A program made the position numbers and the translations under genes. The notes beneath the pieces are model-generated. The model searched no databases. It saw nothing but the letters and a program-made list of their open reading frames with translations, and was not told where the DNA came from. Shown here piece by piece: positions 130 through 52,476 of a DNA stretch of 64,000 nt. The stretch is from Firmicutes bacterium AM41-11 (GTDB lineage Bacteria; Bacillota_I; Bacilli_A; Erysipelotrichales; Erysipelotrichaceae). The stretch spans positions 132,301-196,300 of the forward strand of contig QUIQ01000003.1 in assembly GCA_003480165.1 (NCBI GenBank). Reading direction: 5' to 3'. Within the stretch, counting starts at the first letter, position 1. Each line of letters starts with the position of its first letter.

Positions 130-1278
130 TTATTTAATTTCTACCTTCAATTGCTGCAAAGCCGCCAATAATATATCTTCTAATCCTGTCGTGTCATCCG
201 AATTATCACGAAGTGTTACAGAACATGACAATATTACATTTTTATCGCCCACTGGATAATTTAACTTATACCTATACGTCGTATCATTGGCACTATTCCA
301 ATAATTCGTGTAGCTCATAGAACGATATCCAGAATATTCACCCAATGTATACTCTGTGAATGGCTCTTCTCCTTTACTTAAATGCTCGTTATGGAAGACG
401 ATAGCCTCTTCAAGCGTATCACTTGAATCCGTACATATGTTTACGTATATTGAACGATCTGGATCTTTTCGACTTAATGTATAACCAATGTTTCCCTTAT
501 CCTGATTTCCCTTGATCGTGTCATACTCCATACTTGGCGTATAGAACGAAGTCAAATCTCTCGGTAATATTAATTTTGCACGAGACGATTCGCCAACAAT
601 TTCCTTGCTGTTTTCATCCACCTTCTCTTCTTTAACGTCCTGCTTTGCTTCCTCTTTCTTTTCTTCCTTCACCTTTTCTAGCTTCATATTCTTAATGATA
701 GCCTTCGCAAAAGGTTCTAAATCCGAAGTATCCTTTTCTTTATCATTCTTCTGGTTGATCTCAATAGAAACGACCTTATTGATATCCTCGACTGGATAAT
801 CTACATAATAGTGAAGTCTAGTATTTTCAACTGTACCCAGATTGATGGTGTGACTATACGCATCAAAGCCCTCAAACGTACAAGGCTTATACTTTTTATC
901 CTCGTCATTTTCTCCATACATTGAATTCTGTAGATCCGCACTCTTTTCAGCGGAGCTAGACGACAACAATTTAATTTCAGCATTCAACTCATACTTATTC
1001 TCTTCATTTAAACACTTATAGACAATCGAACCATTATCCTTTAACATACTCTCCATTTTACCTACACCCTCTCTAGATGAAGTAAAATAAGGAGATAGAT
1101 CTTCGGGAACACTCAATTTAGCCGTTCGATCCTGCGTATCCATTCGTTTTTCTTCTTTTTTCTTTTCTGCTACCTTAGCCTCTTCTTTTTTAGGCTCGGG
1201 TTTATCACTTGAACAAGCCACTAAACTCAGTCCCATACCCAAAACTAAGAAGCCGGTTAATAACTTATTCCGATTCAT
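130..1278 (-). CDS. Two-domain lipoprotein of the tandem paralogous family
   Basis: This 382-residue lipoprotein has the signal MNRNKLLTGFLVLG and the lipobox SLVACSS, then a Lys/Glu-rich linker. It carries two copies of the domain found once in its neighbours, about residues 50-200 and 235-382. Both copies show the family landmarks: a 'LP.DL..(Y/F)(Y/F)T' motif near the domain start, a 'Y.P(C/F)T.GE(Y/F)' motif in the middle and 'YPV.D.N.V' near the end. A second charged linker (about 200-230, EEKKEEAKQ) separates the copies. Internal domain duplication explains its greater length. It is 4 bp downstream of the next paralog, so they share an operon. Surface exposure is inferred; no enzyme motif is visible. 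Confidence 0.8.
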   Translation of the reverse strand: MNRNKLLTGFLVLGMGLSLVACSSDKPEPKKEEAKVAEKKKEEKRMDTQDRTAKLSVPEDLSPYFTSSREGVGKMESMLKDNGSIVYKCLNEENKYELNAEIKLLSSSSAEKSADLQNSMYGENDEDKKYKPCTFEGFDAYSHTINLGTVENTRLHYYVDYPVEDINKVVSIEINQKNDKEKDTSDLEPFAKAIIKNMKLEKVKEEKKEEAKQDVKEEKVDENSKEIVGESSRAKLILPRDLTSFYTPSMEYDTIKGNQDKGNIGYTLSRKDPDRSIYVNICTDSSDTLEEAIVFHNEHLSKGEEPFTEYTLGEYSGYRSMSYTNYWNSANDTTYRYKLNYPVGDKNVILSCSVTLRDNSDDTTGLEDILLAALQQLKVEIK

Positions 1279-1282
1279 ATTA

Positions 1283-1957
1283 TTATTCTCCTATTAATTC
1301 AATCTTTAAATTATGTACCACATCCAGCAACAATGGCTCTAATAAGGAAGTATCGTCATCATACCGTAATTCTTCACGAATGGTTAGTACGACATCTTGA
1401 CCATCCACTGGATAATCAAGCACATAATGATATTCAATCGATTTATCACTTGTCACCACATACTTATATCCAGAATATTCACCCACAGTACATGGCTCAT
1501 ACATTTTTGTTTCATCCTTACAAACCTTGTTGTGAGAAATACTGGCAGCCTCTGCTGAATCCCAGCCATCCGTTCCAATTGAGAAATGAATGGTAAACGT
1601 ACGATCTTTCGCATACAATGAATAACCAAGAACATTCGATTGTTCCATATAGCTATATCGAGAAATTTCTCTAGCAGGCGTATGGAAAGAAGTCAAATCT
1701 TTAGGTAAAGTAACTCTTACCTTTTTATTCGCATAACTAATAATCGTACTATCCTTTTCTTTTTCTTCCTCAGCTGCCTTAGCCTTTTCTTCTTCCTTCT
1801 TCTCTTCTTTTACCTTTTCTTCTTTTTCTTCGATTGCCTTAGTCTCTTCTATTTTCTTTTCTTTTACCTTTTCTTCTGGCTCATTAGATGAACAAGCCAC
1901 TAAACTAAGCCCTAACCCCAAGACTAAGAAACCAGTTAATAACTTATTCCTTTTCAC
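1283..1957 (-). CDS. Lipoprotein of the tandem paralogous family
   Basis: A lipoprotein of about 224 residues with signal KRNKLLTGFLVLGLGLS and lipobox SLVACSS. A long Glu/Lys-rich linker (about residues 28-75) precedes one copy of the family domain, with landmarks 'LPKDLTSFHTPARE', 'YEPCTVGEYSGYKY' and 'YPVDGQDVV'. The frame is open to an earlier GTG at 1966, but the GTG at 1957 is preferred: AGGTGAT lies 6 bases upstream, and it yields the same N-terminus as its neighbours (K/N-R-N-K-L-L). The role is unknown; it is part of the leftward operon. Confidence 0.75.
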   Translation of the reverse strand: MKRNKLLTGFLVLGLGLSLVACSSNEPEEKVKEKKIEETKAIEEKEEKVKEEKKEEEKAKAAEEEKEKDSTIISYANKKVRVTLPKDLTSFHTPAREISRYSYMEQSNVLGYSLYAKDRTFTIHFSIGTDGWDSAEAASISHNKVCKDETKMYEPCTVGEYSGYKYVVTSDKSIEYHYVLDYPVDGQDVVLTIREELRYDDDTSLLEPLLLDVVHNLKIELIGE

Positions 1958-1966
1958 TCTTATCAC

Positions 1967-2566
1967 CTACTCTTCCATACAAATTTCAACAACGATATTA
2001 TTCAATACAGCAAGTGTTACCTCATCCAAATCATTGGCTTTTTCTTGTTCTACATAAATTTGTAAGACAACATTATCTTCACCAACTGGATAATCGATCA
2101 ACATCTTAGAATAGGTTTTATCAGACGAATCATATACCGTCGTTTTCTTATAACCCGAATACTTACCAATTGTAAATGCCTTATATTGATCTGCTTCATC
2201 TTCAAAACCTGCATTCAAGACATCCGCCGTTTCCTTGGCTGCCTTACGATAATCGCAATCAATTGAAATTCGCGTGATATACGTACGATCATCCGAATGT
2301 AAATCATATTTAAGGATACGACCACCCTCTAGCTTACCCGATATATCTAAGCCCTCTTGTTTCGGTGTATAAACCGACAATAAATCTGGCATTGTCATCT
2401 TAATGAAATAGCCATTCATTTGTGCGACTCCAGTCATTTCGCCAATCTTTACCTTCTCTTCTTTTTTCACTTGTGAAGACCTTGGTTCTTCTGGCTTTTT
2501 TGCACAAGAAACTAGGCTTAATCCTATACCTAGCGCAAGCAAAATCTTAGCTAGCTTATGATTCAT
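1967..2566 (-). CDS. Lipoprotein of the tandem paralogous family
   Basis: A roughly 199-residue lipoprotein with signal MNHKLAKILLALGIGLS and lipobox SLVSCAK. Its charged linker is the shortest in the family, and it has a single family domain containing 'YTPKQEGLD', 'YKAFTIGKYSGYKK' and 'YPVGEDNVV'. The open frame extends to a TTG at 2593, but the ATG at 2566 lies 4 bases beyond the upstream stop (2571-2573) and gives a standard signal peptide, so coupled initiation there is preferred. No function is recognised. Confidence 0.72.
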   Translation of the reverse strand: MNHKLAKILLALGIGLSLVSCAKKPEEPRSSQVKKEEKVKIGEMTGVAQMNGYFIKMTMPDLLSVYTPKQEGLDISGKLEGGRILKYDLHSDDRTYITRISIDCDYRKAAKETADVLNAGFEDEADQYKAFTIGKYSGYKKTTVYDSSDKTYSKMLIDYPVGEDNVVLQIYVEQEKANDLDEVTLAVLNNIVVEICMEE

Positions 2567-2570
2567 AGAC

Positions 2571-3218
2571 TTACTCACATTTCTTCTTTTCAACTTTTAC
2601 ATGATCCAAAATTGCAGTAATAATAGCTTCTGTATCCGAATCATCCGCTTCCGCTTTTAGCTTTTCAACTACAACCTTAATCGTTCCTTTAAAACCATCT
2701 CGATCCAAATTGAAATACATATTGTACGTTACATAATCATCATAAGAATAATCCGAAATCTTATTTACACCTGTATAGTCACCCACTTGATAAGGCTTAT
2801 AAAGTTTACTCTCATCTTCTTCACCTTTATTGAAGGTTTCAGCCACTTCATCCGCTGTCGCATCTGCACTAGCTTCAATAGCCGCAATCTTTTTCGTATC
2901 GGCTTCTTTATTTTCAAAGCTATAGCGAATAAAGGAATCATTGACAATCTCTCCTGTAACCTCTACACCATCTGCTGGCGTATAAATCGTTGTGAAATCT
3001 TGAGGCATTGTGATGATGATCTCATACTTCTTGTTGTAGTTTTTACTCACCACAAAATCCGTTGACTTCTCTTCCTTCTTTTCCTCTTTCTTTTCTTCCT
3101 TTTTAGCTTCAACAACCTTTGTATCTTCCTTTTTAGGCTCTGGATCATTCGATGCACACGCAGCTAAACTTAAACCCATACCTACAACTAATAAGCTCTT
3201 CACAAATTTTGCGTTCAT
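2571..3218 (-). CDS. Lipoprotein of the tandem paralogous family
   Basis: A 215-residue lipoprotein with signal MNAKFVKSLLVVGMGLS and lipobox SLAACAS. A Lys/Glu linker containing repeated KKEEKKEE units covers about residues 30-50. The single family domain has 'MPQDFTTIYTPADGVEV' and 'YKPYQVGDYTGVN'. The usual YPV motif is replaced by 'FNLDRDGF', so this copy has diverged most in the last third. It is 2 bp from the next paralog and clearly in the same operon. The function is unknown. Confidence 0.75.
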   Translation of the reverse strand: MNAKFVKSLLVVGMGLSLAACASNDPEPKKEDTKVVEAKKEEKKEEKKEEKSTDFVVSKNYNKKYEIIITMPQDFTTIYTPADGVEVTGEIVNDSFIRYSFENKEADTKKIAAIEASADATADEVAETFNKGEEDESKLYKPYQVGDYTGVNKISDYSYDDYVTYNMYFNLDRDGFKGTIKVVVEKLKAEADDSDTEAIITAILDHVKVEKKKCE

Positions 3219-3220
3219 GC

Positions 3221-3841
3221 CTATTTAACCTCAACTTTCATATTGCTTAAAATAGCATTCATCGCTACTTCCATATCTGCTGTATCCGTATCATTGAATT
3301 GTTCTACCGTTACAGACATCACTACATTTTCAAAATCCAACAACAAGTTATCTTTACATTTGAAACTAGGATTTTCACTTGTAGTCACTTGTCTAAAGCC
3401 ATTGAAATCACCCACCGTGCTAGGCTTATATTGTTTTGATTCATCATCCTTAAATCCTTCATTAATACGATTCGCATAAGCTTCTGCACTATCAGCACTG
3501 ATTGGCTTTACATAAATAGCCATTTTAAAATCACCAAATTCATCTTCAAGCGTATATGTGATTTGTTGCTCACTTACTTCTGTTTTTACTTCTAAACCAT
3601 CTCTACTCGGTGTATAGAATGAAGTAAGTTCTGGAATTGTGACTGTATAAGTCTTACTAGAAATTTCTCTTACTAATACGGCATCCGTAGTTTCTTCTTT
3701 CTTTTCTTCCTTCTTCTCTTCTTTTTTCTCTTCCTTCTTTTCTACAACCTTTGTATCTTCCGGCTTTTCACTTGAACAAGCTGTTAATCCAAAAAACATA
3801 CTTAGTGCTAATGCACTCGCAAACAATTTTTTATTATTCAT
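3221..3841 (-). CDS. Lipoprotein of the tandem paralogous family
   Basis: A 206-residue lipoprotein with signal MNNKKLFASALALSMFFG and lipobox GLTACSS. Four KKEE-type repeats form the linker (about residues 33-52). The family domain shows 'ELTSFYTPSRDGLEV', 'YKPSTVGDFNGFRQ' and 'LLLDFENVVMSV'. Its start overlaps the end of the upstream lipoprotein gene by 8 bases, indicating translational coupling. The function is unknown. Confidence 0.75.
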   Translation of the reverse strand: MNNKKLFASALALSMFFGLTACSSEKPEDTKVVEKKEEKKEEKKEEKKEETTDAVLVREISSKTYTVTIPELTSFYTPSRDGLEVKTEVSEQQITYTLEDEFGDFKMAIYVKPISADSAEAYANRINEGFKDDESKQYKPSTVGDFNGFRQVTTSENPSFKCKDNLLLDFENVVMSVTVEQFNDTDTADMEVAMNAILSNMKVEVK

Positions 3842-5120
3842 ACTGATACTCCAATTCTAATTTTTCATGATCAAACATATTTTTGATCTCTAATTTTTCA
3901 TATAACGGCATTACTTTACAATACGATAAGACTTGTTGATTATAGTCATCATATCCATACACAAATCCATCTTCTTCCATACCCACACTAAACAATAGGC
4001 CAGAATGCGAATTTTCTAATTCCTGCATTGTATACAAACCATTTTCATCAATTTGAAGTGTTACACTCTCATTTCTATATGTACCCTCAAGACTAGGAAG
4101 CGGTTGATTTCGCAATGCTTCAAATAAATCAATCAACTGATCCTTTTCCGTCAGTGCCTGCCCACTACGAAGGCTTTTTACTTTATCTAACCCATATAAG
4201 GGTCCTTGACTACAAACACGCTCAATCGGCAAGCCATCCTCAATCGCGATCACTTCCACCAAACCATTTGTCGTTAGCGCAAAACCATAAGTGAGACCCG
4301 GACCTATTTCATATACATGAACTTGTTTATATTCATTAAAACAACCATGCACCTTATACGTTTTATCCGTTCCACTATAGTAAAGTGATATCTTATTATT
4401 CTTTAACGTCAGAGTCATCTGGTCAAACGCAGAAGAATCTTCTATCTTATAAGACTTCTTGCGACTTGGTCGATACAAAACCACCTTTGTTCCAGAACCA
4501 TAATTTGTGGCAATAGGAATCAATACATTCAATTTTCCTTTGTGGTAAAACACATCTAGACTTGAAGGCAACAACCCCATTGTTTGAGCTCTTAATTCCT
4601 TTACATTGTCATAATATTCATTGGCATATTCCTGATCAAAAGCCTGTGCAGCCCATACCTTCATATCTTTTTGACTGATTTTATATTTCTTATATAACTT
4701 TTTATTCGAAACACGCTTCTTCGTTTTAGAATCAAAATGATACACCTTATACCTAGGATATTCCGTCTCTACTTCTTCCTTAATAACTAAACTCAATAGA
4801 TTTGAATGTGTATACACATCATAACTAACCTTTGTGTCCGGCAATGTATACCCTAGTTCTTTTGCCTCATCTAAAGAATCCATCAAACCTTTATATTCAT
4901 TTTTAATGGTCTGATTCAACTTTTTTGCGCTCTTTGAATCACAATGAATATAAGGTAAGGAAATGTCGTACTTACCAACATTTCCCCATGCATCCTTATA
5001 TTCTTCATGAATATTGTAGAAATCTGAAATATATACCTCTTCATCAGGTTGTGATTTACAACCTGTAAACATTAGATTCAAACTAAGAAACAAGACCGAA
5101 CAAAATTTAGTCCAGATCAT
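3834..5120 (-). CDS. Large lipoprotein of unknown function
   Basis: A protein of about 428 residues with a lipoprotein signal (MIWTKFCSVLFLSLNLMF, lipobox MFTGC). It does not share the domain of the small neighbouring paralogs. The N-terminal half resembles a mixed alpha/beta extracellular domain rich in Tyr and Lys ('DISLPYIHCDSKSAKKLNQ'); no catalytic motif is recognised. The frame is open back to 5192, but the ATG at 5120 gives a proper signal peptide and overlaps the upstream gene's end (5107) by 14 bases. As the first and longest lipoprotein in the array it could be a partner or founder gene; that is inference. Confidence 0.7.
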   Translation of the reverse strand: MIWTKFCSVLFLSLNLMFTGCKSQPDEEVYISDFYNIHEEYKDAWGNVGKYDISLPYIHCDSKSAKKLNQTIKNEYKGLMDSLDEAKELGYTLPDTKVSYDVYTHSNLLSLVIKEEVETEYPRYKVYHFDSKTKKRVSNKKLYKKYKISQKDMKVWAAQAFDQEYANEYYDNVKELRAQTMGLLPSSLDVFYHKGKLNVLIPIATNYGSGTKVVLYRPSRKKSYKIEDSSAFDQMTLTLKNNKISLYYSGTDKTYKVHGCFNEYKQVHVYEIGPGLTYGFALTTNGLVEVIAIEDGLPIERVCSQGPLYGLDKVKSLRSGQALTEKDQLIDLFEALRNQPLPSLEGTYRNESVTLQIDENGLYTMQELENSHSGLLFSVGMEEDGFVYGYDDYNQQVLSYCKVMPLYEKLEIKNMFDHEKLELEYQYE

Positions 5121-5850
5121 AGTTCGCAAGAGCTTGATCGGCTGCATCTTTAAATTGCGTACGATCTCCAATGATCGTTGCCCCAAACGCATCCACAGTT
5201 TCTTTTGCCTTTTCCTCTAAGTTTTCACCATTCTTTTTAGCTTTCGCCAAATCCCACATACTCTTTGTTGCCTTAAATTGAGTTACAGACTTTTTAATGC
5301 CACTTCTAAATGAATCATCTAAGCCAAATAATTTATTTAGATAATCTACACATTGATGACATCTTGTTTCATCATCAAATGGAATATAGACATCATTTAA
5401 GCCTTTTGTATGTACAAAACCTAAGTGAACACACTTTTTATCTTTATCCGAACCACTTATTCTTGCGGGCATCCTTTCAGTTCTATATAGCTGAAGATTT
5501 TCTAAACGATATACACACGCATATGTTTTTGTATTAAACAAACCTCCACGAGCTTCAATAACCGCAATCAAGCCTAGACTTGGTGCAATATAAATAGGGT
5601 GGAAAGACTGCATCTTTTGATTTTTATCACGTGTTTTTTTCAAAGGTTCCATTAAATCTTGCCAAATCTTTGTACCCACCTCAGTTTGATGAATATGGTC
5701 CTTGACATTATCTAAATCAGAATGAACATAATCATAATATTTTAATCCTTTTGCACGACAACCCTTTGTACAAATATAATTTCCATCCATTAATTTCTGT
5801 GATTGTAAAACATTAATTGTTGCACCACAAATTGCACATGTATTTGCCAT
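5107..5850 (-). CDS. Zinc-ribbon protein with DUF4428-like N-terminus
   Basis: A 247-residue cytoplasmic protein. The N-terminus carries a Cys4 zinc-binding pattern (CAICG about residues 5-9, then CTKGC about 27-31) like the DUF4428 domain, which often starts proteins of unknown function in Bacillota. The middle (about residues 80-175) is a beta-rich domain with 'IYIAPSLGLIAVIEARGG' and 'VYIPFDDETRCHQCVDYLN', and may resemble a PH-like fold. The C-terminus is helical and charged. AGGAGG lies upstream of the ATG at 5850. It is cotranscribed with the related gene at 6015-6497. The function is unknown. Confidence 0.7.
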   Translation of the reverse strand: MANTCAICGATINVLQSQKLMDGNYICTKGCRAKGLKYYDYVHSDLDNVKDHIHQTEVGTKIWQDLMEPLKKTRDKNQKMQSFHPIYIAPSLGLIAVIEARGGLFNTKTYACVYRLENLQLYRTERMPARISGSDKDKKCVHLGFVHTKGLNDVYIPFDDETRCHQCVDYLNKLFGLDDSFRSGIKKSVTQFKATKSMWDLAKAKKNGENLEEKAKETVDAFGATIIGDRTQFKDAADQALANYDLD

Positions 5851-16399: not shown

Positions 16400-17773
16400 C
16401 TATAATGTTTTTGCCAGCGACTTCAGGAGTGCTGCCATTTCCGGATTTTGCAGAAGCTTCAGAAGAAGTTCTTTATCATCAGCGGAGCTTTCCGTTGCGG
16501 CTGGTTGAACCGGCTCAGGCGTTGCCTGTCTGCCTGAGTAGAACGCAGCTTCCATTCTTTCAGCGTTCAGTCTGCGGTCATCGTCGATGATATGAGAGTA
16601 AACATCCGCTACCATCTTGACCTGTGCATGACCGGAATCGCCTTGAACGGATTTCATATCGCCGCCGTTCAGCTTCAGCTTGTAAGTGATACTGGAATGT
16701 CGGAGACTATGGAAAACCACTTTCGGCAGTCCCTTCTCCTCAATCAGCTTATTGAAAGCACGGTTGATAACCTGCCCCTCAATCGGCTTGCCATTGGAAG
16801 AACAGAAAACCAGATTGAAGTCTACGAACTCGTCACCGAAAAGGTCTTTCAGTTCTTCGATGTCAGCCTTTCGCTGTACCAACATTTCCGCTACGGTTTT
16901 CGGTAAGAACACCTTGCGGACACTTGTTTTGGTCTTAGGAGTTTTGAGAACCAATGCGGTATGCGTACTGGCGAAGGTCGGCGGGAACTTGAACATGATG
17001 TCCTTACCGTCCAGATCTGCCATCGCTTCACGATTTACTCTCTGCAACTCCTTTTCAACGAAGATGCTTGCCTGACCAAGTTCAATACTGGTGGGGGAAA
17101 TGTCAATACAGTCCCAAGTAAGCCCCAGAAGCTCGCCCATTCGCAAGGAACAGGAGAAGGCAAGGTTAATGGCCAGACGAAGAATATCATCGTCACAGGC
17201 TTCCAGAGCCTTCTGGAGCACTTCTGCTGTCCAGATGTCCCTGGTCTTGTGTTCTTCCTTCGGCAGTGTAGCGTGCTCCACAGGGTTTCTGGTCATCAAT
17301 TCCCACTTGACCGCCTGATTGAAAGCATTTCGCAATGTCTTGTGAACCTCTCGGACAGTATGCGGAGTCAGATATTCTGTACGGGCTTTTACATACTTAG
17401 AAGAAACCGCTTTGACAGAAAGCAAATCTCGGTAATACTTGTCCATGATTCTCGGCGTGACATCCTCCAGCTTCATATCACCGATGAGGGGACGAATATA
17501 GTTTGCAATCAGGCTCTTTCTGCTTTCATAGGTAGACATCGCCCAGGTGTTCACACCATAGATTGACATATACTCATCCAAAAGATCGTTGACGGTTTTA
17601 GCAGAAGGGGGAATAAAGGTTCCGGACTCCTGCTCATATTCAACCTGCAACTTCCTTTTCTTTGCTTCAGCATTCGTTTCAAAGGTTTCCCACTTCTGAC
17701 GCTTGTTGCCGTTCTCATCGGTGTATGTATAAACCACAGAATACTTCTTTTTTCTCTTAACGATAGATGCCAT
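16400..17773 (-). CDS. int: Tyrosine recombinase (ICE integrase)
   Basis: A 457-residue integrase next to the left attachment core, expected to cut and join the CTTAGGAG core of tRNA-Arg(CCU). The N-terminus (VVYTYTDENGNKRQKWE) is an AP2-like arm-binding domain, followed by a SAM-like core-binding domain (about residues 60-170). The catalytic domain shows the first Arg in 'CSLRMGELLGLTW', the H-x-x-R box in 'HSLRHSSITYKL', and the nucleophile Tyr in 'ADVYSHIID' after 'DSGHAQVKMV'. A large insert separates the first Arg from the H-x-x-R box. A Pro/Ala/Glu-rich tail follows the Tyr. It is 4 bp from the triple-HTH gene upstream, so they form an operon. Confidence 0.92.
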   Translation of the reverse strand: MASIVKRKKKYSVVYTYTDENGNKRQKWETFETNAEAKKRKLQVEYEQESGTFIPPSAKTVNDLLDEYMSIYGVNTWAMSTYESRKSLIANYIRPLIGDMKLEDVTPRIMDKYYRDLLSVKAVSSKYVKARTEYLTPHTVREVHKTLRNAFNQAVKWELMTRNPVEHATLPKEEHKTRDIWTAEVLQKALEACDDDILRLAINLAFSCSLRMGELLGLTWDCIDISPTSIELGQASIFVEKELQRVNREAMADLDGKDIMFKFPPTFASTHTALVLKTPKTKTSVRKVFLPKTVAEMLVQRKADIEELKDLFGDEFVDFNLVFCSSNGKPIEGQVINRAFNKLIEEKGLPKVVFHSLRHSSITYKLKLNGGDMKSVQGDSGHAQVKMVADVYSHIIDDDRRLNAERMEAAFYSGRQATPEPVQPAATESSADDKELLLKLLQNPEMAALLKSLAKTL

Positions 17774-18761: not shown

Positions 18762-19169
18762 TCACTCCTTCGTTTTCTTTGCTTTATGTTTTGTGGAACG
18801 CTTTTTCAGCTGCTCCATTGCCAGGCTGACGGATAAGGCTTTCTCAATCGCTACCATTTCACGGGGCGTTACCTTACCTAAGTAATTATCAATCCTGCTC
18901 TTATCAATGGTGCGAATCTGTTCCAGCTGAACAACGGACGCTTCTTTGAATGCAGGATTGTCGTAAATAACAAAGTGCGTCGGCATATTCGCTTTCTTAT
19001 GGATTCTGGTGGTGACCGTTGCCACAATCAATGTGGGAGCGTGTTTATTACCGGTATCGTTCTGAATGACGATAACCGGACGGATGCCGCCTTGTTCCGA
19101 CCCAACTACCGGGTCCAGATTGGCGCAATAAATATCACCACGGCAATATACCCAATTTTCTTTCATCAT
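18762..19169 (-). CDS. MazF/PemK-family protein
   Basis: A 135-residue protein with the PemK/MazF fold signature: 'RGDIYCANLDPVVGSEQGG' then 'RPVIVIQND', 'TLIVATVTT', and 'EQIRTIDKSRIDNYLGKV'. Family members are sequence-specific endoribonucleases of toxin-antitoxin pairs. Basic residues crowd the C-terminus (KKRSTKHKAKKTK). No classical MazE-like antitoxin gene is adjacent; the downstream excisionase-type protein or another DNA-binding protein might serve. In Tn1549-type elements such a gene often sits here. It could stabilise the ICE, or have lost toxicity. Confidence 0.8.
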   Translation of the reverse strand: MMKENWVYCRGDIYCANLDPVVGSEQGGIRPVIVIQNDTGNKHAPTLIVATVTTRIHKKANMPTHFVIYDNPAFKEASVVQLEQIRTIDKSRIDNYLGKVTPREMVAIEKALSVSLAMEQLKKRSTKHKAKKTKE

Positions 19170-22319: not shown

Positions 22320-22682
22320 TCAATCAAGCTCCGCTTTTTTTATCATCTCTTGCTGGTCAATCAAGACATCAATCATCTTTCCTACGGTTATCAATGTTGT
22401 TACATTACACTTTTTCAGTTTTGCAGCAATCTCATCATCGATGATGCTGTCGCATTTTGCATATGGGGTATCCAGCAAAAAATAGTCAAAGTTCTTTTCC
22501 AAGACGAATGCCAGTTTTAGAAGCATTGCCAAAGAAACTTTCGTCTGTCCAACTTCAACATGGCTCATATGATTGTTCGAGCAACCAACCAACGCACCCA
22601 AGTCTGCTTGGCTGTATCCCTTCTCCTGGCGAGCAGCTTTAATGCGCTGACCGATTTTTATATAGTCAACTTCCGGTTGCAT
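22320..22682 (-). CDS. XRE-family HTH regulator at the left edge of the resistance island
   Basis: A 120-residue protein with a lambda-repressor-type HTH in the first 70 residues ('IGQRIKAARQEKGYSQADLG', 'GCSNNHMSHVEVGQTKVSLA') and a short helical tail. The start at 22682 is chosen because GGAGGTGATTGAA precedes that ATG. An 18-bp perfect palindrome (22766-22783) lies about 85 bp upstream and is a likely operator. It borders the invertible segment carrying the second recombinase, and its transcription could change when that segment flips, although a terminator lies between. Confidence 0.78.
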   Translation of the reverse strand: MQPEVDYIKIGQRIKAARQEKGYSQADLGALVGCSNNHMSHVEVGQTKVSLAMLLKLAFVLEKNFDYFLLDTPYAKCDSIIDDEIAAKLKKCNVTTLITVGKMIDVLIDQQEMIKKAELD

Positions 22683-22765
22683 TTCAATCACCTCCATGCT
22701 GTGTATGATTCTGCTATACATTATAAAATGTACCAAAAATCTCAACAACCAACATTGGGTGCAAG

Positions 22766-22783: not shown

Positions 22784-22825
22784 TATGATAAAATTTTATA
22801 GGCAGATTGCATTAAATGATAGAAT

Positions 22826-22870
22826 GAAAAGAACCCCAAGACGACAATATGAGCTATCTTGAGGTTCTTT
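22826..22870 (-). terminator. Leftward terminator between the invertible segment and the XRE gene
   Basis: On the minus strand, a stem AGAACCTCAAGA / TCTTGGGGTTCT is followed by a short T-tract. It would stop leftward transcripts leaving the invertible segment. Confidence 0.65.
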
Positions 22871-22881
22871 AAAATAAAAAA

Positions 22882-22906
22882 TTCGTAGAGTACATTACTC
22901 CACGAA
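22882..22906 (+). repeat. Left 25-bp inverted repeat (IR-L) of the invertible segment
   Basis: Begins TTCGTAGAGTAC and ends TTACTCCACGAA. Its reverse complement is identical, base for base, to 24269-24293. Each repeat is itself nearly palindromic, with 11-base half-sites around a 3-base centre, as expected for a tyrosine-recombinase core. As a hairpin followed by a T-rich tract on the minus strand it also resembles a terminator for the recombinase gene. Confidence 0.95.
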
Positions 22907-22956
22907 AAAACACCGCCAAACACTGAAAACTCAGCATTATTTGACGGTGTTGACAA
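22882..22956 (-). pseudogene. N-terminal 25 codons of the HTH gene, detached by inversion
   Basis: A TTG at 22956, one base after the recombinase stop codon, opens a frame reading MSTPSNNAEFSVFGGVFS then WSNVLYE, which ends at the left edge of IR-L. In the present orientation it runs on into unrelated sequence. If the segment 22882-24293 is inverted, the frame continues without a break into the start-less HTH frame at 24294 (RVYPGGDLLIQFVG...). The joined protein would have 147 residues. I infer this is the true N-terminus of that gene. Start by translational coupling (TAA-A-TTG) is likely; a GTG ten codons further is an alternative. Confidence 0.8.
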
Positions 22957-22957
22957 T

Positions 22958-24094
22958 TTATTTGACGGCTAATAAATCAGAAAGCCGTTGCATATTTTCT
23001 TTTTTTAAATCCATGGATGGGTGTACATAGCGATTCATTGTAATATTCACGCTGGCATGACCCAATATCTCGCTGAGACTTTTTACATCGAATCCAAGCT
23101 CTATGCACCTTGTAGCAAATGTATGACGTAACGAGTGATAATTTGCGGAGTTGATTCCGCTGTTTTTCAATACCTTCTTGAAATGATTTTGCATGGTTCT
23201 TGGTTCTAATGGATTCTGATCGCTATTGGTTAGAATGTAGCCAGTAGAAGAAGCTTTGTGTGCTGTAAGAATAGTCATTAAGCCATGGGGTACTGGAATA
23301 GTACGGATGGAGCAAGCACTTTTGGGTGTGGTAACAACAATCCTTGTCTTGCATTCACTGTTGGTTCTATCTTGGATTCTCTGGAGCGTTTGATGCACAT
23401 GGATTGTGTAATCTGAGAATGAAACATCTTCCCATCGCAACGCACAAATTTCACCTACTCTGAGACCAGTGAATAAACATACTAATATACCAATATTGCA
23501 GGAATCAAGATTAGAATACAAGTATTGGCATAATTTTTCCTGTTCAGCACGACTCAAAACTCTCATTTCCTTCGTTTGACGTTTTATCTGTATAGATCGT
23601 GCGTCACAAGAAATGGCTTTCCCGTTTCGGGTGGCAAATTGTAAGATATTTCGAATTAGAGATAAAATATCTGAAACAGTTTTAGAGGAAAGTCCATTCT
23701 CCTTTAATCCACCAGAAACAAGGAAAAAATTACACTGCGTTTCAATAAACTCGTGTGTTATATCACGCAATTGTTTGCTTCCGAACACAGGAAGTATATA
23801 CGAGTTGAGAAGATTCCTATATTTGTTGCTTGTAGATTCTTTCACTTTAGGACATATAGCTTGAAACCATTCCATAGCAACCTGTTCAAATTGATCTGAG
23901 CTAATTTCTGGATCGACAGTGACAGAATTACTCGTGCACGAACTTTGACTGATAAGTTTTGCTTTGACTTCTCGATATGATTTTGCATAAACATAACCGT
24001 AATTGGCTTTGCCTGTAGAAGATCGGGACTTAATGTATCTTCCTTCCCATCTGCCGTCTTTCCTTTTGTAAATATTTTCTCCTTTTCGTGCCAT
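22958..24094 (-). CDS. Second tyrosine recombinase, inside the invertible segment
   Basis: A 378-residue phage-type integrase. The N-terminal arm-binding domain is AP2-like ('IYKRKDGRWEGRYIKSRSS'). A SAM-like core-binding domain spans about residues 65-165. The catalytic domain has the first Arg in 'LFTGLRVGEICALRW', the H-x-x-R box in 'YHSLRHTFATRC', and the nucleophile Tyr in 'NITMNRYVHPSMD' after 'EILGHAS'. The start at 24094 has GAAGGAGGTGTACCTT upstream. The gene is bounded by perfect 25-bp inverted repeats, so it most likely inverts the segment in which it sits; it may alternatively be the integrase of a past insertion. All catalytic residues appear present. Confidence 0.9.
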   Translation of the reverse strand: MARKGENIYKRKDGRWEGRYIKSRSSTGKANYGYVYAKSYREVKAKLISQSSCTSNSVTVDPEISSDQFEQVAMEWFQAICPKVKESTSNKYRNLLNSYILPVFGSKQLRDITHEFIETQCNFFLVSGGLKENGLSSKTVSDILSLIRNILQFATRNGKAISCDARSIQIKRQTKEMRVLSRAEQEKLCQYLYSNLDSCNIGILVCLFTGLRVGEICALRWEDVSFSDYTIHVHQTLQRIQDRTNSECKTRIVVTTPKSACSIRTIPVPHGLMTILTAHKASSTGYILTNSDQNPLEPRTMQNHFKKVLKNSGINSANYHSLRHTFATRCIELGFDVKSLSEILGHASVNITMNRYVHPSMDLKKENMQRLSDLLAVK

Positions 24095-24202
24095 AAGGTA
24101 CACCTCCTTCAATATGACTATAATTCTGACGGCAAATTGTGACTTTGGAACTTCCTAAGACGGATTTTTGCGCAAAACCTCGTGTTTTATGTCCCTAACA
24201 TA

Positions 24203-24231
24203 TTGACAAACAGTGCGACAACTTGTAAAAT
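24203..24231 (+). promoter_or_regulatory. Outward promoter inside the invertible segment, facing erm(B)
   Basis: TTGACA (24203-24208), 17-base spacer, TAAAAT (24226-24231). It is close to consensus and points across the right inverted repeat to the HTH fragment and erm(B). It lies inside the inverted repeats, so inversion would turn it away from erm(B) and toward the leftward XRE gene. Confidence 0.8.
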
Positions 24232-24268
24232 AGAGATGTAAATTAAAAAAAAACAGAGAAGAATGCGA

Positions 24269-24293
24269 TTCGTGGAGTAATGTACTCTACGAA
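24269..24293 (+). repeat. Right 25-bp inverted repeat (IR-R) of the invertible segment
   Basis: Begins TTCGTGGAGTAA and ends TGTACTCTACGAA; it is the exact reverse complement of IR-L. It forms part of an open frame that continues into the HTH gene (WSNVLYE codons), which explains why the sequence must be kept for both recombination and coding. Confidence 0.95.
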
Positions 24294-24662
24294 AGAGTAT
24301 ACCCAGGAGGAGATTTATTAATTCAATTTGTAGGGCGAGATGCTTATAAGCAGTTTTGGAATTTTAGTAAAGATGAGAAAGAGAACTTGGCCACTCAATT
24401 GGCGATTGAGTTACCCGCACTCAGAGGAAAAGTTGGTGCATCACAAGAAGAAATTGCTTCGGCTGTTGGTATTTCACGACAAACTTATAGTGCCTACGAA
24501 AATCGGACACGCCCAATTCCATGGAGTTTATATCTAGCACTATTGTTTTATTTTGATTACATTCCAAGTACACATTATATGATTCGCCAGCTTGAATTAT
24601 TCCCAAATGAATTAGACGAATGTTGGTTAGCTGGTAGAGTTTTTATTGAGGAAGAAAAATGA
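24270..24662 (+). pseudogene. XRE-type HTH gene upstream of erm(B), start lost in this orientation
   Basis: The frame is open from 24234 to TGA at 24662 but has no ATG, GTG or TTG before a TTG at 24387. From 24294 it encodes a domain 'LIQFVGRDAYKQFWNFSKDE' and then a lambda-type HTH ('ASQEEIASAVGISRQTYSAY', 'ENRTRPIPWSLYLALLF'). The missing N-terminus is found inverted at 22956-22882. From TTG 24387 a 91-residue protein with the intact HTH could still be made, giving a shortened regulator. A ribosome-binding-like AGGAGGAG at 24305 is followed only by ATT codons in frame. It is 34 bp upstream of erm(B) in one transcription unit. Confidence 0.78.
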
Positions 24663-24696: not shown

Positions 24697-25434
24697 ATGA
24701 ACAAAAATATAAAATATTCTCAAAACTTTTTAACGAGTGAAAAAGTACTCAACCAAATAATAAAACAATTGAATTTAAAAGAAACCGATACCGTTTACGA
24801 AATTGGAACAGGTAAAGGGCATTTAACGACGAAACTGGCTAAAATAAGTAAACAGGTAACGTCTATTGAATTAGACAGTCATCTATTCAACTTATCGTCA
24901 GAAAAATTAAAACTGAATACTCGTGTCACTTTAATTCACCAAGATATTCTACAGTTTCAATTCCCTAACAAACAGAGGTATAAAATTGTTGGGAGTATTC
25001 CTTACCATTTAAGCACACAAATTATTAAAAAAGTGGTTTTTGAAAGCCATGCGTCTGACATCTATCTGATTGTTGAAGAAGGATTCTACAAGCGTACCTT
25101 GGATATTCACCGAACACTAGGGTTGCTCTTGCACACTCAAGTCTCGATTCAGCAATTGCTTAAGCTGCCAGCGGAATGCTTTCATCCTAAACCAAAAGTA
25201 AACAGTGTCTTAATAAAACTTACCCGCCATACCACAGATGTTCCAGATAAATATTGGAAGCTATATACGTACTTTGTTTCAAAATGGGTCAATCGAGAAT
25301 ATCGTCAACTGTTTACTAAAAATCAGTTTCATCAAGCAATGAAACACGCCAAAGTAAACAATTTAAGTACCGTTACTTATGAGCAAGTATTGTCTATTTT
25401 TAATAGTTATCTATTATTTAACGGGAGGAAATAA
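24697..25434 (+). CDS. erm(B): 23S rRNA adenine-N6 dimethyltransferase Erm(B), MLS-B resistance
   Basis: A 245-residue protein, the standard Erm(B) length and sequence as I know it ([17 protein letters not shown]...). It dimethylates A2058 of 23S rRNA and so blocks macrolides, lincosamides and streptogramin B. SAM-binding motif I ('[17 protein letters not shown]') and the catalytic '[10 protein letters not shown]' (N-x-P-Y variant) are present. AAAAGGGA lies 6 bases before the ATG. The usual 5' leader with its ErmBL peptide and attenuator stems is missing: the sequence directly upstream is the HTH gene instead. Expression is therefore probably not drug-inducible in the classical way, but follows the upstream promoter. 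Confidence 0.97.
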
Positions 25435-25842: not shown

Positions 25843-26388
25843 ATGAATCAAGGAAGAATTATTGTGATTACAGGCTCACCGGGGACAGGAAAAACAACAA
25901 CTGCGTCAATTGTCGCAAAGGAATCAGATATGGATAAATCAGTGCATATGCACACCGATGACTTTTTTCATTACTTAAGCAAAGGCGCAATACCACCACA
26001 TTTGCCAGAATCCAACAAGCAAAATCTGGTTGTCATTGAAGCCTTTTTAGAAGCTGCAAAGCGATATGCTCGTGGCGGATATGATGTAATTGTAGATGGG
26101 ATTGTCGGGCCATGGTTTTTGGAGCCATGGAAAGCTCTTGCCCAAGAAGATTACGAGGTACACTATATTGTATTAAGAGCGAGTAAAAAAGAAACTATGA
26201 AGCGAGCTGTGGAACGCTCAAAATTAGATAGAAAAACAAATATTGAATTAGTGGAAACAATGTGGGAGCAATTTTCCGGTTTGGGGATATATGAATCAAA
26301 TGTCATAGACACAACTACATTCACAATTAAAGATACGGTTTCCGCAATAAAAGAAAGAGTTGCATGTGGGACGTCTTTACTATCTTAG
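25843..26388 (+). CDS. P-loop kinase-like ATPase inserted in the zeta gene
   Basis: A 181-residue protein with Walker A 'TGSPGTGKTTTAS' (about residues 9-21), a DDFFHY motif at about residues 42-47, and a downstream region 'VIVDGIVGPWFLEPW' resembling chloramphenicol-phosphotransferase-like or shikimate-kinase-like enzymes. The ATG at 25843 follows GAGGGAAAATACAG. It is intact, unlike the surrounding epsilon-zeta fragments, and may have replaced the middle of zeta as part of a composite cassette. Its substrate is unknown; a small-molecule kinase is most likely, and a drug-modifying role cannot be excluded. Confidence 0.72.
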   Translation: MNQGRIIVITGSPGTGKTTTASIVAKESDMDKSVHMHTDDFFHYLSKGAIPPHLPESNKQNLVVIEAFLEAAKRYARGGYDVIVDGIVGPWFLEPWKALAQEDYEVHYIVLRASKKETMKRAVERSKLDRKTNIELVETMWEQFSGLGIYESNVIDTTTFTIKDTVSAIKERVACGTSLLS

Positions 26389-26993: not shown

Positions 26994-27031
26994 AAGAGTA
27001 GTTACCAAAAAACGGTAACTACTCTTTTTTT
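26994..27031 (+). terminator. Terminator after the zeta remnant
   Basis: A perfect 13-bp stem AAGAGTAGTTACC / GGTAACTACTCTT with a 7-base loop, followed by a T-run. It ends the erm(B) island transcript. Confidence 0.92.
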
Positions 27032-28370: not shown

Positions 28371-29411
28371 TTGAGCAACGTAAATGCTGATGCAACTCAA
28401 TTACTGACAATACTGAAAAATATGCGGACCTCCATTTCTTCTATCGAAACTACAAGAAGTTCTGTGAAGATGAAATATCAGCAATTGGGAATTGGATGGA
28501 ATGACAAGAAGTACGATGAGCTGGGAACTATCGTAAAAGATTGCAACAAAGCCCTGAATGATATTTTACAGATTATGCTTCAGGCCGAAAAATACGTTGC
28601 TTCACTTGCCAAAAGTGTACAAGAATATGATAATGTTAATTTGGACACTCCTTCTGCACGAAATTCTTTCCTCCAGGGTCTGCAAACACCTAATGTTGGT
28701 AATTCGTCTTATCAGTATTGCCTTGGCGTGCTAACCCAAGGTAGCACACCAGACGGATATATCGCTGTTATATCACAACGCCATGAAAATGCAGAGCAGA
28801 ATGTCAGAGAAGTGTTTGACCATTTCGCTGGTAAACTGATGATACAAGATTCTGAATATCCACCGGATCAGACAGCACATTACTCACCGGGAAATTATAT
28901 AGGGCATTCACGAGGAGTCTACTACAATGCAGCTTCTGATATGACAAATCCAAGAGGTGCAGGAACAACTTATTTCCACGAGCTTGCTCACATGATCGAC
29001 CATGCTTCGTGCAACTATCGGAGCAATCTATCCAATACTCCAGAATTTGCTGAGGCACTGGTTGAGGACGGACAAAGAATCCTGAGCTTATATAACAATC
29101 TTCCAGTGGAAAAGCAAACTGCTTTTCTGACCCGTATTAGGCAGGATTCAGCTCACTCCTTCTCGGACTTAATTGATGCGACAACAAATGGTCAATTGCA
29201 CGGAAATTATGGTCACTCAAGGAACTATTGGACGAGACCGGGCAATCTACAAGCAGAAGCCTTTGCCCACTTTTTTGAAGCGTCTATGGGAGACCAAGGC
29301 AAATTAGAGCTATTAGCAAATTTCTTTCCTACAGCGTTTGGTATTTTTTCTTCAATGATTGATTCTATTAGACCAGATAATCATGTTAGGGTCTTGAGCA
29401 GAGAAAGGTAG
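28371..29411 (+). CDS. WXG100-like protein with zinc-metalloprotease C-terminal domain (candidate secreted toxin)
   Basis: A 346-residue protein starting with TTG at 28371 after GGAGGTGAGTG. Residues 1-90 closely match the N-terminus of the previous gene's product ('VNADATQLLTILKNMRTSIS', 'GIGWNDKKYDELG'). The C-terminal part has 'TTYFHELAHMIDHASCN' (about residue 202), a classical H-E-x-x-H zinc site, and a later 'NLQAEAFAHFFEASMGD' that could give the third ligand (Glu). The domain recalls anthrax lethal-factor-like or polymorphic-toxin metalloproteases. It is probably secreted by a chromosomal type VII system of the host, because no secretion genes lie in the window. Confidence 0.72.
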   Translation: MSNVNADATQLLTILKNMRTSISSIETTRSSVKMKYQQLGIGWNDKKYDELGTIVKDCNKALNDILQIMLQAEKYVASLAKSVQEYDNVNLDTPSARNSFLQGLQTPNVGNSSYQYCLGVLTQGSTPDGYIAVISQRHENAEQNVREVFDHFAGKLMIQDSEYPPDQTAHYSPGNYIGHSRGVYYNAASDMTNPRGAGTTYFHELAHMIDHASCNYRSNLSNTPEFAEALVEDGQRILSLYNNLPVEKQTAFLTRIRQDSAHSFSDLIDATTNGQLHGNYGHSRNYWTRPGNLQAEAFAHFFEASMGDQGKLELLANFFPTAFGIFSSMIDSIRPDNHVRVLSRER

Positions 29412-30874: not shown

Positions 30875-31103
30875 ATTCATAATCTCACAAATTGGCAAAT
30901 TGGCAAGCAGTGTAAACCTGTACAGGTTCACTCATTTTCTCGATTTTCCCTTCGGTGCAATCTTCGCAAATTTGCTTGTTGGGGAAGCATCCCCAATCCC
31001 CTTTGAACATCATCTGCCGATGATGGCTACACGATTTTCAATCGTTTCTCAAAGAACAGTAGAATAAAAATTTGCCCATGGTTGAAAGCACCGAAATCGA
31101 AAA
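30875..31103. other. Spacer after the cargo operon
   Basis: No gene is recognised. It contains short inverted stretches (GGAAGCATCCCC; CATCTGCCGATGATG) and repeated CGATTTTC-type words. It separates the rightward cargo operon from the leftward transfer module. Confidence 0.4.
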
Positions 31104-31160: not shown

Positions 31161-32573
31161 TTAACGGAAGTTCTTCTTTTCCTCTTTCTCTTTCTCTTTT
31201 TCCTGCTCTTTCTGCCTGTCGATATTCAAAATCGTTTCAACCGTCCGTTTGGCAATCAGCAGTTCTTCTTTCTCTTTTCTGATCTGACGGTACTCAGCGT
31301 AGTCCTGCTTTTTCTGGACTGCCAGCTGATGAAACTCCTCATACAATGATTGCATGGACGGGAGCTTTGTAATCTGCAATTCATCAAAGGCTTGCTTCGC
31401 CGCTTTATGAATTGTGATTTCCTGACGGTGTTCTTCAAAGAATTTTTTGCTATATCCAGACTTGCGGTACTCGATATAAATTTGCCTTGTGTTGCGATAA
31501 TTTTTGATGTGCTGCTGCAACGCCTGAACCTCAACCATACGTTTCTCTGCGACCTTGATAGAATCAGAAAGCGCATCGAACCGGGCAGACAGATTTTCAA
31601 TATGAGCAGTCAGATCGTCGTAGTTGCCCAAGCCTTTTTCTTTCAGTAGGATTACCGTTCGGGCAGCTTCTTTTCGGTTGAACTTCTTCGCCCACTTTTC
31701 ATAACCGACCGTCTTGCCCTCGGCCATCTTTGCCTGAATATCAATCAGCATCTGGAACTGCTTCGGGGCAGGAGCCTTGGCAGAGCCGCCTTTTGATTTG
31801 TGCAGGTTCTTGCCGGAGATAACCGCTTGAATTTCCTCTTTGCTATATCCTTCGCCCAGGGAACGCAGCCGAATGAAACGCTTCTGATTCTCGCCCTTGA
31901 ACGCAGGCTGCTTTCCATCCTTGAACTCAAATCCCATGTCAGCCAGAGCCTGAACAAAGCCATCAAAGCTCTTTGGTTTCTGCTTCAGCACCGCATCAAT
32001 CGCATCACATAATTCGTCACGCTGGGTACGCTTCTTGGGATAAACAGTTCTTTTCTGGCGCTCCCGATACGGCTTCGGTGTAATAATGGACAGCCCGTGT
32101 TCCAGGCAAACCATATCACTGAGTCTTTGCACCGCCAGACCGGAAAGAAAGAAGTTTTTGAATTTCCGTGTGGCATCCAGCGAGGTCGAATTATAAATGA
32201 TATGATTGTGAATGTGGGATTTGTCGATGTGGGTCGCAACGATGAAAGCGTGTTTTCCCTTTGTCCATCGCATCGCTGTTTCATAGCCGACTTGGTTCGC
32301 TTCTTCCGGGGTGATTTCTCCCGGCTTAAAGGACTGGCGTATCTGGTATGCGATGATATTGTTCTTCTGCTGTCTGCCGGTAATATGCTGATACTGCCGT
32401 TTGGAAAGCAGAAATTCCTCATCTGCTGTCTTTGGATCACACTCATAGGAACTGATAAATTCGCCATCATTGGTTTTTGCGGCATTTTGTGAGTAGTCGG
32501 TTCTGTCTGCCAAACATTGAGCGACCGTCTTTCCCTTATTCACATGGAGTGCAATCAATCTTGTCGCTGCCAT
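31161..32573 (-). CDS. MobP-type relaxase
   Basis: A roughly 470-residue relaxase that nicks oriT and pilots the strand. The N-terminal nuclease domain has 'ATRLIALHVNKGKTVAQCL' with Tyr in 'DRTDYSQNA' as candidate nucleophile, and the metal-binding histidines in 'THIDKSHIHNHIIYNS' (about residue 120). The C-terminal half is a long coiled coil ending in a Lys/Glu run. The frame opens at a GTG (32582), but the ATG at 32573 has GGAAG at a better distance. It is the last gene of the leftward transfer operon. Confidence 0.88.
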   Translation of the reverse strand: MAATRLIALHVNKGKTVAQCLADRTDYSQNAAKTNDGEFISSYECDPKTADEEFLLSKRQYQHITGRQQKNNIIAYQIRQSFKPGEITPEEANQVGYETAMRWTKGKHAFIVATHIDKSHIHNHIIYNSTSLDATRKFKNFFLSGLAVQRLSDMVCLEHGLSIITPKPYRERQKRTVYPKKRTQRDELCDAIDAVLKQKPKSFDGFVQALADMGFEFKDGKQPAFKGENQKRFIRLRSLGEGYSKEEIQAVISGKNLHKSKGGSAKAPAPKQFQMLIDIQAKMAEGKTVGYEKWAKKFNRKEAARTVILLKEKGLGNYDDLTAHIENLSARFDALSDSIKVAEKRMVEVQALQQHIKNYRNTRQIYIEYRKSGYSKKFFEEHRQEITIHKAAKQAFDELQITKLPSMQSLYEEFHQLAVQKKQDYAEYRQIRKEKEELLIAKRTVETILNIDRQKEQEKEKEKEEKKNFR

Positions 32574-32635
32574 TCCCATCACTTCCTTCCCAAAAAGAAA
32601 AAGCCACCGGTCGGTGACTTTTCTCTGATATTATC

Positions 32636-52121: not shown

Positions 52122-52476
52122 TTCGTTCAACCTCCTTTTCCAGTTTGTACTGACGCATCAAAGCGTCATAATAGTTGTCCGTCTGATAAGGGCGAACCTT
52201 GGGACGAACGAATTTGGTCTGAATGAAGTGTTCTACAACCACTTCCAACGGCTGACTATCCTTTTCATACATTGCCAGAAAGAACAACGGTAACATGACG
52301 ATCATCATGGACAGTGCTGCAAGGCTCACATTTCCGGTTGCTTTGACCAGAAAGAAAATCGGCACTCCGATGAGCGCCGCCGCACCAAAGCAAAGTAACT
52401 GCCGTTTCGTCAGATTGAAGAACACTTTTGTTTTTACCCTCGTCAGGTCACGAGGTACGGGAATATACGCTGCCAA
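52042..52476 (-). CDS. PrgI-like membrane protein (VirB3-like)
   Basis: A 144-residue protein with two membrane segments in the first 75 residues ('LLCFGAAALIGVPIFFLVK', 'LAALSMMIVMLPLFFLAMY') and 'PVPRDLTRVKTKVFFNLTKR' at the start, as in PrgI-family proteins of Gram-positive type IV secretion. It ends with a basic tail that overlaps virB4. It probably recruits VirB4 to the membrane, as VirB3 does. Confidence 0.88.
   Translation of the reverse strand: MAAYIPVPRDLTRVKTKVFFNLTKRQLLCFGAAALIGVPIFFLVKATGNVSLAALSMMIVMLPLFFLAMYEKDSQPLEVVVEHFIQTKFVRPKVRPYQTDNYYDALMRQYKLEKEVERIVFQKEATGKKHQNACKSESEAAARN

Follow-up and report, generated by a model that had tools for sequence, protein, structure and literature searches.

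We analysed a 1.4-kb DNA segment, measured from repeat to repeat, that lies upstream of the macrolide-resistance gene erm(B) in a 64,000-nucleotide stretch of Firmicutes bacterium AM41-11 (contig QUIQ01000003.1, positions 132,301 to 196,300), hereafter the window. Comparison with its natural copies revealed that the segment is an invertible promoter encoding its own recombinase, seen in both states. Very probably it acts as a self-contained invertible promoter within an integrative and conjugative element (ICE) of Clostridia, directed in the ON state towards a helix-turn-helix (HTH) gene and erm(B) and in the OFF state towards a hairpin. A preliminary description of the window had proposed that the segment inverts and that its inversion rejoins the two parts of a split HTH gene; the former proposal was borne out, the latter was not.

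The segment and its recombinase

The following features of the window form the segment and its immediate surroundings.

22882..22906, reverse strand: left 25-bp recombination site, exact inverse complement of the right copy
24269..24293, forward strand: right 25-bp recombination site, exact inverse complement of the left copy
22958..24112, reverse strand: tyrosine recombinase, complete and between the repeats (PF00589, E 1.1e-27; PF14659)
22907..22960, reverse strand: terminator hairpin from the recombinase stop to the left repeat (-22.3 kcal/mol; -24.7 kcal/mol in L099, a 78% identical sibling)
24203..24231, forward strand: outward sigma-70-type promoter TTGACA-17-TAAAAT (11/12 consensus letters)
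24305..24310, forward strand: Shine-Dalgarno-like AGGAGG of the HTH gene, just outside the repeat and the segment
24294..24662, forward strand: HTH gene, frame open from the repeat, start region to the right of the repeat (PF13560, PF01381)
24697..25434, forward strand: erm(B), intact (NF012220, 565.7 bits against a cut-off of 525)
22820..22881, reverse strand: left-flank hairpin just outside the repeat, a probable dead end for the promoter when reversed (-21.9 kcal/mol)
22320..22694, reverse strand: XRE-type regulator left of the segment (PF01381), which also adjoins the segment in L099, L090 and L051

The exact inverted repeats, the complete recombinase between them and the near-consensus promoter facing the HTH gene and erm(B), all reported in the preliminary description, were confirmed. 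The repeats were perfect in all 10 loci checked, and the orientation breakpoints coincide with them. No further repeat-like site with up to three mismatches occurs in the 64-kb window, where shuffled sequences predict none, and a search of viral contigs for the exact repeat gave 0 matches. The recombinase frame begins with TTG at 24112, with ATG at 24094 the likely start. Residues R212, K258, H320, R323, H346 and Y356, which we take to be the catalytic residues of the recombinase, are invariant in the alignment with 14 relatives. Compared by eye, the terminator hairpins of the window and L099 differ by one stem pair changed on both sides and by others changed on one side. At the position equivalent to the left-flank hairpin, L099 has a different sequence that folds at -13.2 kcal/mol.

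The outward promoter is the best of three sites found, with shuffled sequences averaging 6.9 weaker-or-equal sites at a threshold of 9/12. It ends 37 bp before the right repeat, is kept in L099 and, in the orientation of the window, is followed past the right repeat by the Shine-Dalgarno sequence, the HTH gene and erm(B) in this order.

Natural copies in both orientations

Copies of the segment were sought in sampled and overlapping sets of 396 family, 394 order and 391 class genomes and in 70 plus 87 further family genomes, and 11 distinct copies, all at least 98% alike, were compared. Two of them, the window and G001 (L002), have the segment in the orientation of the window (A), whereas the other nine (L001, L008-L014 and G707) carry it reversed between the same two flanks (B). 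Genomes G146, G500 and G696 were treated as those of L011, L008 and L010 and were not counted a second time. L001 is a scaffold from human faeces (MT836186.1) that carries no annotation and is filed under 'Bacteriophage sp.'; the named carriers, L008-L014, belong to Butyricicoccus, Blautia, Agathobaculum, Negativibacillus, Eisenbergiella, Brotaphodocola and Clostridium. An erm-free 78% copy, G390, is also in orientation B. The proposal that the segment inverts in nature is upheld by these copies.

In the mechanism that we propose, the tyrosine recombinase encoded by the segment would recombine the two 25-bp repeats and flip the whole 1.4-kb segment, including its own gene. In the ON state, represented by the window, transcription from the TTGACA/TAAAAT promoter would pass the right repeat and continue through the HTH gene to erm(B). 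In the OFF state, it would run into the left-flank hairpin, the transcript of the recombinase would be stopped at its own terminator hairpin before reaching the HTH gene and erm(B), and these two genes would be left without a strong promoter. From the sequences we infer that the recombinase of the segment does the flipping, that flipping recurs within one strain and that the orientation of the segment sets the expression of erm(B).

The erm(B) block and its ICE

Further features of the window belong to the erm(B) block and to the ICE that surrounds the segment.

25843..26388, forward strand: AAA/zeta-toxin-like kinase gene in the erm(B) block (PF13238, PF06414)
28371..29411, forward strand: protein with a weak WXG100 match (PF06013, E 6.8e-4, below cut-off), in place of the sibling's secretion locus
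16400..17773, reverse strand: ICE integrase (PF00589, E 7.8e-18)
31161..32582, reverse strand: ICE relaxase (PF03432)
49695-52130: ICE TraG-type ATPase (PF19044)
54416-56170: ICE coupling protein (PF02534)

The ICE encodes as well a topoisomerase, an NlpC/P60 protein, ParB and ParA, and a MazF/PemK-like toxin gene is found near its integrase (18762-19169, reverse strand; PF02452, E 7.1e-32). The same backbone without erm(B) is present in G390, the left arm being 96.6% identical and the right arm about 96% from window position 30896 onward. Behind its HTH gene, G390 encodes a 155-residue protein, a weak TPR match, SPFH, FtsK/SpoIIIE with FHA, YukD, three WXG100 proteins and PP2C, which together make up a type VII-like secretion locus. 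In the window, the equivalent stretch is occupied by erm(B), the AAA/zeta-like kinase gene and the genes of two right-hand proteins. The weak WXG100 match belongs to one of these two, and neither shows likeness to the proteins of the sibling at E 0.01. The erm(B) block appears to have replaced the type VII-like secretion locus. The switch would first have served an HTH-headed operon, in the sibling ICE the secretion locus, in whose place the erm(B) block now stands; the switch probably preceded the arrival of erm(B).

Two types of junction join the HTH gene to erm(B). In the first, a longer HTH 3' end is followed by erm(B) (window, G001, L001, L012, L013 and G707), and in the second erm(B) brings a longer upstream region, which truncates the HTH gene (L008-L011 and L014). 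The dependence of erm(B) on the switch is clearer at the first type, that of the window. Both ON copies have this junction (2/6 versus 0/5), numbers too few to weigh.

At window position 27025, G001 is longer by about 5.2 kb. In L139 a second stretch (203-5741), about 80% alike to the right ICE arm of the window, precedes the ICE, so that two related elements lie side by side.

A plasmid or phage home of the segment was considered and rejected. The best of 1362 matching plasmid records spans 42% of the query, and none of the 30 plasmid matches listed begins before query base 2487, beyond the segment. Among 11 matching phage records only one has the segment, and its scaffold carries the same ICE and, as judged by eye, chromosome-like genes.

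A family of putative self-inverting cassettes

Relatives of the recombinase number at least 574 among genome contigs, the best 80 of which were kept, and 9 among viral contigs. Repeats were sought around the gene in 82 loci of 38-99% identity, with L008 representing the near-identical L009-L014 and with L040, cut by a contig end, excluded. A usable repeat pair surrounds the gene in 59/82 relatives, mostly near TTCGTAGAGTA-nnn-TACTCTACGAA, and the other 23 loci were dropped before the promoter count and the operon-side comparison. In a control with 51 of the 82 loci, picked for their long flanks, a repeat score of at least 15 was reached by 43/51 loci, compared with 1/50 when the flanks were moved 2 kb outward and 0/51 when they were shuffled.

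An outward promoter with 11-12 of 12 consensus letters lies between the 5' repeat and the gene in 49/59 loci and on the inward strand in 0/59; the best outward site reached at most 9/12 in three loci. Of 59 loci, 56 could be counted for the first gene past the 3' end of the recombinase, which points away from it in 49, as in the OFF state here.

A six-gene operon (50-74% identity) that adjoins the segment on one side in L016 adjoins it on the other in L018, only that side having been compared, and two of its genes are likewise opposite in L016 and L020. Judged from these gene arrangements, the L016/L018 operon is a second, independent case of opposite arrangement. A gene for a TnpB/Cas12f-like protein of 437-455 residues lies to the left of the segment in L036 (3371-4738, reverse strand) and to the right in L038 (6324-7637), L041 (6255-7604) and L044 (6258-7583); its PF07282 matches range from E 1.9e-5 to 5.2e-9, that of L038 falling just short of the cut-off. 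The first part of this gene is duplicated in L036 by an inverted 366-bp repeat and is present on both sides of the segment. The TnpB-like nuclease beside the cassette is possibly phase-variable.

Among 121 proteins adjoining the switches, the commonest Pfam families were HTH_3 (7), zinc ribbon (5), FHA (5) and HSP70 (3). A ThiF-family protein is encoded behind the HTH gene in L051 and L068, with a YukD match in L068, and marks a second secretion- or ubiquitin-like operon. In L039 the matching repeats at 2244 and 6175 are 3.9 kb apart and delimit a segment larger than the usual 1.4 kb. Near position 6190 of L088 and L089, the recombinase is accompanied by a single repeat and stands between the XRE regulator and genes that look phage-like by eye; it may also act as an integrase there.

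Alternative explanations

According to the preliminary description, the HTH frame of the window lacks a start codon, and reversal of the segment joins it through the repeat to a TTG-started frame of 25 codons, giving a 147-residue protein whose restoration would be hard to explain by chance. The TTG frame begins at 22956 and stays open into the left repeat, as claimed, and the start codon of the HTH gene is non-standard in the window. The fused frame is likewise open in natural reversed copies, over 147 residues in L001 and 138 residues in L008, and in L058 and L059 the mechanically derived HTH frame does cross the repeat. Against a regulator rebuilt in this way, the HTH gene has its own start region outside the repeat, and intact copies exist: it is complete, with 114 residues, in G001, in the same orientation as the window. 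In L099 it has its own start 18 nt past the repeat and a different N-terminus, an outcome that the preliminary description itself had listed as refuting its view. Of nine relatives examined, L058 and L059 among them, the 7/7 tested for an in-frame start upstream lacked one, the HTH matches of L050, L053, L085, L101 and L109 being outside this test. The would-be N-terminus overlaps the terminator hairpin kept in the sibling, and open frames of at least 25 codons with a start codon precede 28.5% of random points in the window and, where random DNA is matched for GC content, 7.6%, a rate at which chance is a ready explanation. On these findings the split HTH gene was rejected, and the frame is most likely an accident of sequence. 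That inversion additionally rebuilds a longer, 147-residue regulator, with protein and promoter both changed by the switch, is highly improbable.

The two orientations might also stem from a rare, one-time event: recombination between the sites would lie far back, and every ICE lineage would since have kept its orientation with no phase variation. In this small set of copies, orientation does track lineage, the two A copies being close kin of each other and the nine B copies likewise. Such fixation is nevertheless unlikely, as every copy examined has an intact recombinase and two intact sites and opposite arrangements recur in the family (L016 versus L018 and L020). We give very little credence to an insertion cassette with terminal inverted repeats whose orientation reflects separate insertions. 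The cassette family adjoins many unrelated genes, and the single repeats beside phage genes in L088 and L089 would suit this explanation; it is weakened by the two flanks, which are the same in all 11 copies, and by the persistence of the left regulator and the HTH gene beside the diverged cassettes of L099, L090 and L051. No segment-free copy turned up, though no search aimed at empty sites was made.

Several observations weigh against a functioning switch of erm(B). Both orientations are known across strains, not within one strain. The A and B copies differ by 5% in the left flank and by 1.6% in the segment, and since the two A and nine B copies form two sequence lineages (left flanks 95% alike), orientation is possibly lineage-fixed. 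The 25-bp repeat is palindromic, and read-through across it could therefore be weakened. One other promoter-like site precedes erm(B) on the same strand, inside the HTH gene; it scores 9/12, where about 1.6 such sites are expected by chance, and might drive erm(B) whichever way the segment points. The longer upstream region of erm(B) in L008-L011 and L014 has a TATAAT box, so that erm(B) may not depend on the switch in these copies; a scan for a full erm(B) promoter in L008 gave one site, on the wrong strand. Finally, 23 of the 82 relatives have no usable repeat pair, 20 of them lacking a pair and three (L023, L061 and L073) having weak or cut pairs; among the 23 are 10 loci whose recombinase is less than 350 bases from the locus end.

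Comparison with known invertible systems

The invertible segment of the Hin switch of Salmonella flagella holds both an outward promoter and the gene of the serine recombinase that inverts it. The segment of the window shares this layout and differs in its tyrosine recombinase (PF00589), in its targets and in its host group. Phase switches of Clostridioides difficile resemble it as cases of DNA inversion controlling genes in Clostridia, but their recombinase is encoded elsewhere and they are not known to include a resistance gene. The Hin switch is mentioned, in the part of the text consulted, in PMC11868660.

The closest functional counterpart is found in Bacteroidales. In the sections consulted of Yan et al. 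2022 (PMC8748976), on which this paragraph draws, resistance genes under invertible promoters are described solely in Bacteroidales, on ICEs, with one class including ermB, and 4/96 cases are predominantly ON. As here, an invertible promoter faces a resistance gene on an ICE in these invertible promoter-antibiotic resistance gene (IP-ARG) classes 1-3 (ermB in class 2), the invertase is of the tyrosine type, and the OFF state is the more frequent one; the resistance gene was inserted into an operon already switched, as was probably the case here too. Unlike the arrangement here, with the recombinase between the repeats, their invertase gene is upstream of and outside the invertible region. Their promoter is of the Bacteroides type (-33 TTTG, -7 TANNTTTGY), here TTGACA-17-TAAAAT; their older operon serves glycan synthesis, whereas that of the sibling is type VII-like; and their hosts are Bacteroidales, here Clostridia (the named carriers L008-L014). 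The methods of that survey discarded invertible regions containing or overlapping coding sequence, a filter by which a cassette with an internal recombinase would be removed, and its authors themselves allow that such promoters could have gone unseen outside Bacteroidales through a limitation of the tool.

A survey of gut communities (PMC11892184) kept gene-intersecting invertons and, in the portion consulted, links the clostridial inverton group 139 to the tyrosine-type invertase group 35. By description, this group is alike in its clostridial hosts, in its tyrosine-type recombinase and in orientation shifts in culture. Its two examples given with coordinates are about 255 bp long and therefore too short to hold a recombinase. 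Among the titles, abstracts and passages that searches of openly licensed PMC text brought up, none reported that an invertible promoter controls a resistance gene in Clostridia or that a tyrosine recombinase lies within such a segment. The switch works like the Bacteroidales IP-ARG and is laid out like Hin, and is a member of neither.

Significance of the switch

We consider it rather probable that Clostridia harbour a large family of self-inverting promoter cassettes, each with its own tyrosine recombinase, and that these cassettes subject loci for secretion, surface and TnpB/Cas12f-like functions to phase variation. A member of the family, carried by an ICE present in at least 9 genomes, would have captured erm(B) in place of a type VII-like operon, giving rise to random switching of macrolide resistance outside Bacteroidales that is convergent with the known systems and was missed by a survey dropping gene-containing invertible regions. 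The cassette exposes a class of invertible promoters lost from that survey (PMC8748976), so far as its consulted sections describe the coding-sequence filter. Because the recombinase is inside the switch, no separately encoded invertase is needed and the module can move as one piece with the ICE. If this interpretation is true, switchable resistance, known from Bacteroidales, would extend to Clostridia and would have arisen there by a second route, namely capture by the switch of a secretion operon instead of a glycan locus. Macrolide resistance may then be switched on and off at random, and a strain with erm(B) may be mostly OFF, in which case forecasts based on gene content and growth tests would disagree.
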